DNA of 64,000 nt from Pseudanabaena galeata CCNP1313 (GTDB lineage Bacteria > Cyanobacteriota > Cyanobacteriia > Pseudanabaenales > Pseudanabaenaceae). The first letter of the stretch is position 1. The number at the start of each line of letters is the position of its first letter. Positions 13,695 through 51,855 of this stretch are shown here, one piece after another. The stretch spans positions 2,046,001 through 2,110,000 of the forward strand of contig NZ_CP112874.1 of NCBI RefSeq assembly GCF_029910235.1, in the 5' to 3' direction. The notes beneath the pieces are model-generated. The model made no database searches. It was not told the origin of the DNA and was given only the letters and a program-made list of their open reading frames with translations. A program made the position numbers and the translations under genes.

Positions 13695-13805
13695 ACGTGA
13701 GTTCGATACAGCCATTTGCGTCGTGCGAAGCACGACGCAAATGGCGAAAAATGGTAAGAATCGCTTAGCGATTCTTACCATTTTTCGCTTTCGTCGAACT
13801 GACGT
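13695..13805. mobile_element. Family A MITE (111 bp)
   Basis: Complete element with ACGTGAGTTCGATA and ACGTCAGTTCGACGA ends and both internal hairpins. The flanks (actattg / tatattg) match at 5 of 7 positions, so the target duplication has decayed or the element landed in the end of the family B copy. Confidence 0.8.
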
Positions 13806-14730: not shown

Positions 14731-14878
14731 ACTGACGTTGCGGGGAAGTTTCTAAAGTAGGAGTGAGTTTGATACCAATTCATGCAGGTAAATACAAACG
14801 ATAGGAACTCTGCACATAATCCACAGACCGCAAGCAAAGAGTTCTAATCTTTTCCCATGCTACGGACTACCTAATCAA

Positions 14879-14989
14879 ACGTGAGTTCGATATAGCCATT
14901 TGCGGCGTGCTTCGCACGCCGCAAATGGCGAAAAATGGGAAGAATCGCTAAGCGATTCTTCCCATTTTTCGCTTTCGTCGAACTGACGT
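14879..14989. mobile_element. Family A MITE adjacent to its putative parent IS
   Basis: Complete 111-bp copy flanked by TAATCAA at 14872-14878 and 14990-14996. The right-hand TAATCAA is also the left flank of the IS982-type element, and a third TAATCAA follows that element at 16000-16006. Confidence 0.9.
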
Positions 14990-14996
14990 TAATCAA

Positions 14997-15999
14997 ACGT
15001 CAGTTCGACGGAGTAGACAAAAGCAAAAGAAAAGCTGAGACTAGGTTTGACAAACTAAAAGCCTCAGCAATATGAACAGTATCGTATCGCACTTGGATAT
15101 CACGCGAATCTTCTGTGAAGTGGATGATTTTTGCCAAAGCTTTGAAAAACACTGGCAAGAGCAACCAATGTTGCCATCAATGCAGGGAGAAAGGAAAAGT
15201 CGCTCAAGAATGAGGTTGAGTGAAGTGATGACCATCGCGATCGCCTTTCATGGGTCAGGATACAAGACCTTCAAAGACTTCTATACCCTAACTGTAATAC
15301 CGTTTTGGCGGAAAGCATTTCCCCACTTGGTAAGCTACACCCGCTTTGTCGAGCTAATGCCTTGGACAATGATGTTGTTATGTTGCTTTCTGCATACCCG
15401 CAAAGGCGAAGTGACAGGAATATCATTCATCGACTCCACACCGATCAATGTCTGTGTACCATGCCGTGCCCATGCCCATAAAGTATTCAAAGGTATGGTC
15501 AATTGGGGCAAAAACTCAGTGGGATGGCACTTTGGCTTCAAGCTACATTTGATTATCAATGACAAAGGGGAATTGCTTGCCTTCAAGCTCACACCAGCCA
15601 ATATTGATGACCGACAACCTGTGCCTGAGATGGCTCAAGACCTCTTTGGTCAATTGTTTGGTGACCGTGGTTATATCTCCCAAAAGTTGTTTGAGAAGCT
15701 CTATGAACAAGGTTTACAACTGATTACTAAGCGCAAGAAAAATATGAAAAACTGTTTGGTCAAGTTGATTGATAAGATTTTGCTGCGTAAGCGCGCAATT
15801 ATTGAGTCCGTCAATGACCAACTCAAAAACATTTCTCAGATTGAGCATTCAAGACATCGCAGTTTTTTTAATTTTCTTGTCAACCTTTTAGCTGGGTTGG
15901 TTGCTTATACATATCGAGAGACTAAACCTGCTTTAGATCTTCTCTTCAAAGGCTTGCCTGCTCTTCCTCCTGCCATCTTTTAGTGCGTCGAACTCACGT
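14997..15999 (+). mobile_element. IS982-family insertion sequence, apparently intact
   Basis: 1003 bp with terminal inverted repeats ACGTCAGTTCGACG (left) and ACGTGAGTTCGACG (right, read inward), one mismatch in 14. It is flanked by 7-bp TAATCAA duplications. It carries one full-length transposase. Its ends are the ends of the family A MITEs scattered through the window, so it is a plausible source of the transposase that moves them. Confidence 0.9.
15072..15983 (+). CDS. IS982-family transposase
   Basis: 303 residues, full length for the family. The conserved N-terminal block RMRLSEVMTIAIAFHGSGY is characteristic of IS982. The DDE triad is visible as D121 (SFIDSTPINVC), D198 (LFGDRGYIS) and E245 (KRAIIESVNDQ). 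It catalyses cut-and-paste or copy-out transposition of DNA ending in the ACGTSAGTTCGA repeat. No frameshift or stop interrupts the frame and both ends are intact, so activity is possible. The stop lies just inside the right terminal repeat. Confidence 0.93.
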   Translation: MNSIVSHLDITRIFCEVDDFCQSFEKHWQEQPMLPSMQGERKSRSRMRLSEVMTIAIAFHGSGYKTFKDFYTLTVIPFWRKAFPHLVSYTRFVELMPWTMMLLCCFLHTRKGEVTGISFIDSTPINVCVPCRAHAHKVFKGMVNWGKNSVGWHFGFKLHLIINDKGELLAFKLTPANIDDRQPVPEMAQDLFGQLFGDRGYISQKLFEKLYEQGLQLITKRKKNMKNCLVKLIDKILLRKRAIIESVNDQLKNISQIEHSRHRSFFNFLVNLLAGLVAYTYRETKPALDLLFKGLPALPPAIF

Positions 16000-16069
16000 T
16001 AATCAAGATATTCAAGCTTAGCTAAAGTTTGAATCATGGCTTTGAGACTCAAAGCTTTAAGACTCTTCC

Positions 16070-27112: not shown

Positions 27113-27179
27113 ACGTGAGTTCGATATAGCCATTTGCGGCGTGCAAAGCACGCCGCAAATGGCTATATCGAACTCACGT
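27113..27179. mobile_element. Short family A MITE (67 bp) with target duplication
   Basis: A near-perfect palindrome in which both ends read ACGTGAGTTCGATATAGCC around the gcggcgtgcaaagcacgccgc stem. The second hairpin of the 111-bp form is absent. Flanked by TTATTTA on both sides (27106-27112, 27180-27186). Confidence 0.88.
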
Positions 27180-45632: not shown

Positions 45633-46334
45633 GTGTTAGAGATTAATAACCTTAGCGTTAACTATGGTGGCATTCAAGCCTTACAGGATATTAATTTAAC
45701 AGTCAATGAAGGCGAAATCGTGACCTTGATTGGCTCTAATGGCGCAGGTAAGACGACCACTTTACGGACTATTTCTCGTCTTGTTTCGCCACGTTCAGGA
45801 CTGATTATTTACAACGGTAAAAATCTTACGAATCTACGACCAGATCAAATAGTCAAAATTGGGATTGCCCATAGCCCAGAGGGGCGGAGAGTATTAGCAA
45901 GACAAACTGTGCTGGATAATTTGGAACTAGGGGCTTTTTTACGTAGCGATCGCTGGGGAATTAAAGCTGATATCGAAAAGCAATTTCAGATTTTTCCGAG
46001 ACTAGGTGAACGTCGTGATCAACTCGCAGGAACCTTAAGTGGTGGTGAACAACAAATGTTAGCGATCGCCCGTGCAGTAATGAGCCGCCCCAAGTTGTTG
46101 CTATTAGATGAGCCAAGTTTAGGGCTAGCACCGCAAATTGTGCGCGAAATTTTTAAAACCATTGTTAATCTCAACCAAGATGGAGTCACGATTTTATTAG
46201 TTGAGCAAAACGCCACCTTGGCTTTGCAACATGCAAATCGCGGCTATGTGATGGAGTCGGGAGTGATCACCATTGAGGGGCAAGCGTCAGACTTATTAGT
46301 TGATCAAAGGGTGCGCCAAGCTTATCTAGGATGA
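45633..46334 (+). CDS. Branched-chain/neutral amino acid ABC transporter ATPase LivF-like
   Basis: 233 residues from a GTG start. Walker A GSNGAGKTT, the signature LSGGEQQMLAIARA, Walker B LLLLDEPSL and the switch histidine-type region VEQNATLA. The text GIAHSPEGRRVLARQTVLDN is diagnostic of LivF rather than LivG. In cyanobacteria this corresponds to NatE of the N-I transporter, an inner-membrane importer of neutral amino acids. The permease, LivG and binding-protein genes are not adjacent; such dispersal is common in cyanobacteria. A terminator of the family B hairpin type follows. Confidence 0.9.
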   Translation: MLEINNLSVNYGGIQALQDINLTVNEGEIVTLIGSNGAGKTTTLRTISRLVSPRSGLIIYNGKNLTNLRPDQIVKIGIAHSPEGRRVLARQTVLDNLELGAFLRSDRWGIKADIEKQFQIFPRLGERRDQLAGTLSGGEQQMLAIARAVMSRPKLLLLDEPSLGLAPQIVREIFKTIVNLNQDGVTILLVEQNATLALQHANRGYVMESGVITIEGQASDLLVDQRVRQAYLG

Positions 46335-46339
46335 GACCT

Positions 46340-46380
46340 AAAAGACGAGTGGCGGTGCTTTGCACCGCCACTCGTCTTTT
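46340..46380. terminator. Terminator after livF
   Basis: 19-bp perfect arms AAAAGACGAGTGGCGGTGC and complement around TTT. The arms are a variant of the family B hairpin without the TATAGC ends. Confidence 0.82.
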
Positions 46381-46381
46381 A

Positions 46382-46418
46382 ACGTGAGTTCGATATAGCA
46401 GCTATATCGAACTCACGT
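46382..46418. mobile_element. Minimal family A MITE (37 bp) with target duplication
   Basis: A palindrome made only of the two ends (ACGTGAGTTCGATATAGC joined to its complement). Flanked by TCTTTTA on both sides (46375-46381 and 46419-46425). The left TCTTTTA is the last part of the livF terminator. Confidence 0.88.
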
Positions 46419-46518
46419 TCTTTTAAGCTTTATGGGAAACTTTTAGTGGATTTGTGTTTTATCCAACACTTTTAGCGCACAATTTTAAGTAGATACCTAG
46501 CGCTTCAAATTGTTTCGT

Positions 46519-47607
46519 ATGATTGAGACCCTCAATAAGTTGCCTCGTTGGTTTTCACTGGGCTTAACTTTCCCGTTAATCTTTCTAAACGGGTGGTTAT
46601 TGCTATTGCTATGCCGAGAATTGCAACCATTAGTCAGTATTCTCATTACGGCAACAGTTATTTCGTTTTTGCTAGATTATCCCATACGCTTTCTGATCAA
46701 ACTGAAGGTTAAGCGAGGCATTGCCGCAGGACTAGTAATCCTGATATTTTTCATGCTGCTTAGCACCTTAGCAATTTTTCTTGTGCCTTTAATCTTGGCA
46801 CAGGCAAATGAATTAATCGTGCGCCTACCTGAATGGATTAAGTCGGGTCAGCAGCAGCTACTAACTCTTGAAACTTGGGCGATCGCCCAGCAGTTACCGA
46901 TTGATATTAGTAGCACCTTTAATCAACTCATCGAAAAGTTAACGGGTGTCTTGCGATCGCTGACTAGTCAACTTTTTAGTATTGTCTTTGGAGCGATCGG
47001 TAGTCTTGTAAATATCTTCTTAACCTTGATATTTTCAATTTTTCTCGTCCTGCGTGGCTCCTTTTTGTGGAATGGTTTGCTAAGTTGGCTACCCCAAAAA
47101 TGGAACGATCAAGTTCGGAATTTATTGCCCCGTAATTTTGAGCGTTTTATTGTTGGACAGGTAACTTTAGCAACGATCCTCGGTGTGTCACAAACTACTG
47201 CCATGCTAATTTTAGGGGTTCCCCTTGCTCAGCTTTTTGGCTTTGGTATTGGTATTGCCAGTTTAATTCCCCTTGGTGGCTCCAGCACAATTATTACTGT
47301 AAGCCTATTAATCGCATTACAAAATTTTTGGCTTGGAGTCAAGGTGTTATTGGTCGCCGTAGCAATAATTCAAATTGTGGAGAATGTACTCGGTCCTCGA
47401 ATTGTTGGTGAGTTAACGGGTTTAAATCCCGTATGGATGCTAATTTCTCTTGATATTGGCTTTAAGTTAAATGGTGTACTCGGTTTATTGGTAGCTGTGC
47501 CGATCGCTGGTTTTATCAAAGGTACTTTCGACACAATTCGCGGTGTGAATAGTCCGCCTACTATTGAGGCGAGTCCTGAAGCTCATACAGAAGTTTCAAT
47601 TAAATGA
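46519..47607 (+). CDS. AI-2E family transporter (UPF0118)
   Basis: About 362 residues from the ATG at 46519; a TTG three codons earlier is possible. Seven or eight membrane segments, for example LTFPLIFLNGWLLLLLC, ISFLLDYPIRFLI, AAGLVILIFFMLLSTLAIFL and the C-terminal pair IGIASLIPLGGSSTIITV and IIQIVENVLGPRIVG. These C-terminal motifs are the family signature. Members may export autoinducer-2 or act as sodium/proton antiporters; the substrate here is unknown. Monocistronic, with a decayed family B element after it. Confidence 0.87.
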   Translation: MIETLNKLPRWFSLGLTFPLIFLNGWLLLLLCRELQPLVSILITATVISFLLDYPIRFLIKLKVKRGIAAGLVILIFFMLLSTLAIFLVPLILAQANELIVRLPEWIKSGQQQLLTLETWAIAQQLPIDISSTFNQLIEKLTGVLRSLTSQLFSIVFGAIGSLVNIFLTLIFSIFLVLRGSFLWNGLLSWLPQKWNDQVRNLLPRNFERFIVGQVTLATILGVSQTTAMLILGVPLAQLFGFGIGIASLIPLGGSSTIITVSLLIALQNFWLGVKVLLVAVAIIQIVENVLGPRIVGELTGLNPVWMLISLDIGFKLNGVLGLLVAVPIAGFIKGTFDTIRGVNSPPTIEASPEAHTEVSIK

Positions 47608-48963: not shown

Positions 48964-49074
48964 ACGTCAGTTCGACGAAAGCAGAAAATGGTAAGAATCG
49001 CTAAGCGATTCTTACCATTTTCTGCCATTTGCGGCGTGCTTTGCACGCCGCAAATGGCTATATCGAACTCACGC
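48964..49074. mobile_element. Family A MITE, inverted orientation
   Basis: 111 bp, from ACGTCAGTTCGACGAAAGC to ...ATATCGAACTCACGC, the last base changed from T. The 7-bp flanks do not match well, so it is an older or rearranged copy. Confidence 0.75.
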
Positions 49075-49095
49075 TCTATTACACTTTGCGACAGC

Positions 49096-49187
49096 TATAG
49101 CACTCCTAAATGAGTTGTAAGATTTTGAGGGTTGTGAGAGAGCGCCCTGAAGGGGCGCTCTCTCACAACCTATTTAGGATTGCTATA
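49096..49187. mobile_element. Family C MITE
   Basis: TATAGCACTCCTAAATG and ATTTAGGATTGCTATA ends around a gagcgccctgaaggggcgctc stem. Confidence 0.78.
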
Positions 49188-51744: not shown

Positions 51745-51855
51745 ACGTGAGTTCAATATAGCCATTTGCGGCGTGCGAAGCACGCCGCAAATGGCGAAAA
51801 ATGGTAAGAATCGCTTAGCGATTCTTACCATTTTTCGCTTTCGTCGAACTGACGT
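51745..51855. mobile_element. Family A MITE (111 bp) with target duplication
   Basis: Complete copy (one change in the left end, ACGTGAGTTCAATA) flanked by TAAATTA at 51738-51744 and 51856-51862. The glycosyltransferase stop codon starts at the very next base. Confidence 0.9.

Follow-up and report, generated by a model that had tools for sequence, protein, structure and literature searches.

A 37-bp palindrome of two IS982-type MITE ends in Pseudanabaena galeata CCNP1313, most likely the relic of a longer hairpin element

Insertion sequences of the IS982 family are 845–1282 bp long, have ends of the form AC(N)6T(N)5TT and generate direct repeats of 2–10 bp (PMC7335449). The same source gives their precise mode of transposition as unknown, and the words "MITE" and "miniature" do not appear in its available text. 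A MITE derived from IS982 has been described in Cardinium, MITECca01, which is about 240 bp long, is found in large copy number and is thought to be maintained by intact ISs (PMC9769881). The QMITE1 remnants of Coxiella burnetii go down to much smaller sizes (39–321 bp) and were regarded by the authors as possibly degenerate forms (PMC5896051, reviewed in PMC10969869). A literature search for a minimal IS982 spacer, or for MITEs in Pseudanabaena, found nothing. Very short MITE remnants are already known, and what is new here is what looks like a unit of bare IS982-type ends with an intact target duplication.

We have analyzed a window of 64,000 nucleotides from the genome of the cyanobacterium P. 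galeata CCNP1313 (5.84 Mb, G000 in what follows), the features of which are collected in Table 1. The re-reading of the sequence confirmed the palindrome described in the first-pass annotation, with the correction that the pairing of its arms, given there as near-exact, is exact (18/18). It is a perfect inverted repeat with the layout ACGTGAGTTCGATATAGC-A-GCTATATCGAACTCACGT, a DNA folding z-score of -9.7 and no transposase gene within its 37 bp. The TCTTTTA copies at both sides, also reported before, are perfect over their 7 bp and of the type found in the family. As in IS982 elements, the tips begin with AC and follow the pattern AC(N)6T, the direct repeats are variable (6–9 bp here) and an IS982 transposase is found in the same window; the differences are the missing transposase gene and a length of 37 bp instead of 845–1282 bp (PMC7335449). 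Like MITECca01, the palindrome is non-autonomous and has IS982 inverted repeats, but it is single-copy and has no internal sequence (PMC9769881). It resembles the QMITE1 remnants in being a very short reduced copy beside full-length MITEs, but both complete tips and the duplication are kept; the relevant passages of those papers neither name the parent IS of QMITE1 nor display the 39-bp copy (PMC5896051, PMC10969869).

Table 1. Features of the window around and related to the palindrome (positions in the window).
Feature	Position	Strand	Details
111-bp MITE	826..936	+	left + right end; duplication TGATATA
111-bp MITE	13695..13805	+	flanks differ at 2/7
111-bp MITE	14879..14989	+	duplication TAATCAA, common with adjoining IS
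IS982-family insertion sequence	14997..15999	+	1003 bp; duplication TAATCAA
IS982-family transposase	15072..15983	+	303 aa
67-bp perfect-hairpin MITE	27113..27179	.	left end at both sides; duplication TTATTTA; of the type proposed as parent
ORF upstream of palindrome	45633..46334	+	233 aa
Terminator-like hairpin behind upstream gene	46339..46381	.	site of the insertion at its 3' tail
TCTTTTA, left copy	46375..46381	.	7-bp target duplication
Ends-only palindrome	46382..46418	.	37 bp; a single A between two identical 18-bp "left" MITE ends
TCTTTTA, right copy	46419..46425	.	7-bp target duplication
ORF downstream of palindrome	46510..47607	+	365 aa
111-bp MITE	48964..49074	-	flanks differ at 3/7
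111-bp MITE	51745..51855	+	duplication TAAATTA

The transposase of the window matched the NCBIfam IS982 model at 255.7 bits (cut-off 130) and also Pfam PF13612. The IS982 model had 23 matches in G000, 17 of them at 256.3–257.2 bits and free of stops. The ends could be paired for 15 of these 17 copies, and 14 of the 15 were flanked by a perfect duplication of 6–8 bp (one further end pair, a partial copy at locus L230, was left out of this count). This IS looks recently active, because of the 17 near-equal-score, stop-free transposases and the duplications in 14 of the 15 complete copies. A search of plasmids with the IS gave no match. The 12-bp tip ACGTSAGTTCGA is common to the 1003-bp copies, the MITEs and the palindrome, and the inner bases of the ends differ; the 1003-bp element is the probable source of transposase. 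Two arrangements concern neighboring elements. At 14872-16006 a MITE and the IS lie side by side with one TAATCAA between them and three copies in all, and at L039:1375-1546 a 110-mer and a 38-mer share one TATTTTTA in the same way, again with three copies in all. It is possible that IS982-type elements tend to insert at the duplication of an existing element.

The 16-bp end of the palindrome had 10 matches in the window at up to 2 mismatches (0.05 expected), and 264 in G000 (137+127) at up to 1 mismatch, with 0 for the reversed control. We read the first 30: 22 are parts of a MITE of ca. 111 bp, two are in 67-mers and the remaining six lie outside both types. Pattern searches, which under-count units with more mutated tips, were used to count lengths and copies; exact 12-bp tips spanned 86–116 bp at 108 places, and those listed had a length of 111 bp apart from single ones of 102, 110 and 112 bp. 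In the 111-mer, two hairpins separate a left end ACGTGAGTTCGATATAGCC from a right end of different sequence ACGTCAGTTCGACGAAAGC, while the seven 67-mers are near-perfect to perfect hairpins with one hairpin between two left ends. Both types are multicopy and retain their hairpins, and the palindrome shares with them the ends and the type of duplication. The description of the palindrome as a unit made only of two transposon ends, and its link to IS982, were borne out by elements of the same genome. We read 43 elements of up to 125 bp with their flanks (28 of 108–112 bp, the seven 67-mers and eight short units), and a perfect duplication of 7–9 bp was present in 23, against a perfect 6–10-bp match in 2.2% of shuffled flank pairs, which makes it credible that the 7-bp repeat around the palindrome is a genuine target duplication. 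Since three of the seven 67-mers have perfect duplications and two more have them with one mismatch, the 67-bp family looks mobile. A plasmid search with the 67-mer gave a single hit, a related but partial hairpin on a plasmid of Pseudanabaena.

Other repeats were noticed alongside these. A truncated 111-bp MITE at 4140-4218 has the left end and first hairpin and lacks the right end. The 111-mers at L014 and L023 have beside them another, longer MITE-like element, whose tips (ACGTGAGTTCGAGATAAGCTAC... / ...TTAACCCGAACTG) are IS982-like. A repeat of ca. 90 bp from another family (CTCCTAAATGAGTTGTAAGATTTTGAG...) is found at 49090-49129 and in L040 around 1320-1412, with many matches among those listed in genomes G009 and G018.

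As an IS982-type MITE the palindrome has the expected terminal inverted repeats matching the IS982 element of its genome, the 7-bp duplication and the absence of a transposase in a genome with 17 near-equal-score, stop-free copies of one; what it lacks is presence in multiple copies at unrelated sites. The first-pass annotation had looked to further 37-bp copies with other 7-bp flanks, and none exists in G000 within 3 mismatches. We have compared the short units with the 67-, 108–112- and 1003-bp elements at the fetched G000 loci, asking for derivation by one deletion from an element of the same genome. The 67-mer found at L030/L192 minus one contiguous stretch of 30 bp gives the palindrome exactly, with 0 bp of microhomology at the junction. 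Besides, its two ends are both of the left type, as in the seven 67-mers, while those of the 111-mers are left and right. The lack of microhomology goes against a deletion, and so does the central A, which agrees with a single one of the compared 67-mers. Because of the lone copy and the single internal deletion from a 67-bp relative, we regard it as most likely the reduced remnant of such an element rather than a unit that moves by itself. Specifically, it is probably what remained in place after an IS982-mobilized 67-bp MITE with two left ends lost about 30 bp.

In bacteria, hairpins are known to be lost, either at short repeats or through cleavage of their tips. In the scenario that we favor, TCTTTTA, in the 3' tail of the terminator-like hairpin, would have been the target of a 67-bp hairpin MITE bearing the left end twice, brought in by an IS982 transposase acting in trans and generating the 7-bp duplication; the evidence from the family supports this step. 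The perfect hairpin would later have formed in single-stranded DNA or as an extruded cruciform, and about 30 bp of its stem and loop would have been lost by slippage or by cleavage and rejoining of the hairpin tip. The two outer 18-bp arms, with both common tips, would be left behind inside the original target duplication.

There are eight such ends-only units in G000, with lengths of 34 (1), 37 (1), 38 (5) and 43 bp (1), and seven of them, the 37-mer included, can be obtained by one contiguous deletion in a 67- or 111-bp element of the same genome. The 43-mer has 1 bp of microhomology, the two 38-mers ending in CTCACGT can be derived from a 67-mer parent with 3 bp, and the three ending in CTGACGT from a 111-mer parent with 5 bp (CGTCG); for the 34-mer there was no single-deletion parent among the elements compared. 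No unit with exact 12-bp tips was found in G000 at 44–66 or 68–85 bp, as expected if whole stems are lost. Five of the eight units have no duplication (counting a one-mismatch case as present).

The alternative that survives best, although we hold it unlikely, is the claim of the first-pass annotation that the 37-bp unit itself moves. It would then have been inserted as such, almost without spacer, by the IS982 transposase acting in trans or on a hairpin or paired-sister intermediate. The perfect duplication of family type and the intact tips are in its favor, as are the five 38-mers, found at five places with one common junction (a single tip base varies); among their duplications one is perfect (8 bp) and one has a single mismatch. 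If IS982 mobilizes spacerless units, these 38-mers may be a small transposed family. Repeated deletions at the same microhomology would explain the common junction, and so would the spread of a 38-bp unit. At one 38-mer locus (L040) we tried to use synteny; the spacer beside the shared gene was too divergent to align in G018 and G009, and the anchor in G019 was spurious. Since the junction fits deletion and spread alike, the idea that the IS982 transposase can mobilize two-tip units with almost no spacer (37–38 bp here, 31–43 bp elsewhere) keeps some probability, though a low one. Work on short Tn5/IS50 transposons indicates that stiff short DNA makes the pairing of ends hard, and the stiffness of a 37-bp DNA should hamper it here. 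The single copy, and the fact that one deletion suffices, also speak against the movement of the unit.

Other genomes provide evidence on both sides. None of 25 other genomes of the genus had an identical 37-mer unit (with a pattern covering 28–58 bp); G022 has a 55-bp and a 57-bp palindrome, and the 57-bp one is flanked by a perfect 7-bp duplication. Ends-only units of up to 54 bp were found in 4 of 388 genomes of the class (G000 with 8, G295 with 2, G232 and G332 with 1 each). Favoring insertion as a short unit are a 43-bp one in the cyanobacterium G295, with a perfect 8-bp duplication, and a 31-bp one in an Alistipes MAG, with a perfect 7-bp duplication (TATTTTA). A scan of public genomes gave at least 121 distinct units that could be read. 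Most (96) were 55-mers, which we discarded as ends-only units and took as part of a longer repeat, because 94 of the 96 have a conserved flank on one side. Among those listed from the scan there were 25 units of other lengths, of which 21 lacked a perfect duplication of 6 bp or longer and 4 had one; among these four, L142 has palindromic flanks. We followed 14 loci (12 of these 25 units plus two 55-mers) into whole genomes. Matches were found in 12, and the other two had been chosen for units longer than the search pattern allows. Eleven of the 12 had one unit and one had two different units, a single-copy status that applies to exact tips and to genomes some of which are incomplete MAGs. We re-read 13 such units with their flanks; a perfect duplication (6 bp or longer) was seen for the Alistipes one and was lacking in the other 12. 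Within the limits set by exact tips and incomplete MAGs, the single-copy pattern fits scattered relics and not a proliferating class.

The palindrome lies between a gene whose product we take, from its motifs, to be an ABC-type ATP-binding protein and another that by its look codes for a membrane protein. We searched 24 relatives for this site and 21 spacers were readable (those of G007, G023 and G021 were not). No IS982-type end or element was found at the orthologous spacer of these 21, with no strain of the same species among them, and no longer (67-bp) allele either; the insertion is thus seen in this lineage only and the longer allele is likewise unseen. The mark proposed beforehand for an internal deletion was a single copy plus, in relatives, a longer element at this site; the copy is indeed the only one, and no such element was found in the readable relatives. 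The empty sites are not a clean single TCTTTTA. Compared with G020-type spacers, G000 lacks about 14 bp of the hairpin tail, and G020, G019 and G015 have TTTTTTA where G000 has the right-hand TCTTTTA. Because G020-type spacers keep these ca. 14 bp, the pre-insertion site is inferred here and not directly seen. The left TCTTTTA, besides, doubles as the 3' tail of the terminator-like hairpin, which calls for caution about the duplication.

These differences are what might be expected from a second alternative, that the palindrome arose when a deletion between two neighboring elements joined their outer ends, the TCTTTTA pair being partly a coincidence in a T-rich terminator tail. The lack of duplications in most ends-only units elsewhere, and in the five of G000, is also in line with it. 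We consider it improbable, as shuffled flank pairs so rarely match, and the two ends are symmetrical and identical over 18 bp, as expected from one 67-mer. That the palindrome is a terminator or regulator unrelated to transposons, as its place behind a gene and directly after a terminator-like hairpin might suggest, is scarcely credible: the 264 matches of the same end strongly disfavor it, the family elements are flanked by duplications, the tip is common with the IS982 element and the 21 readable relatives have no palindrome at the site. The in-place deletion of a 67-bp MITE is, then, the reading that we retain.

The terminator-like hairpin itself belongs to a repeated sequence. Its core GAGTGGCGGYGCTTYGCRCCGCCACTC is found at seven places of the window (9058, 13624, 14658, 16665, 21277, 23417 and 46347; up to 3 mismatches), and related matches recur across the genus. 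In G019 (L163) the spacer orthologous to 46335-46510 carries a hairpin insert, AGCAATTCTCATTAT...ATAATGAGAATTGCT, of 47 bp between two ACTCGTC copies. This may be another tiny palindrome, from a different family, that inserted into the same terminator-like hairpin.

As a relic, the palindrome is ordinary, yet it shows hairpin MITEs shrinking to bare ends with the tips and the target duplication kept. A natural series of lengths (34, 37, 38, 43, 67, 111 and 1003 bp) and one IS982 transposase occur together in P. galeata, so that a test of the minimal spacer would be straightforward in this mechanistically uncharted family. Should the small units prove mobile, they would rank among the smallest transposable units and limit the ways in which IS982 can pair its ends. 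The transposase could then do without a single long, bendable segment carrying both ends, which might be paired, for example, from two copies or from a hairpin.
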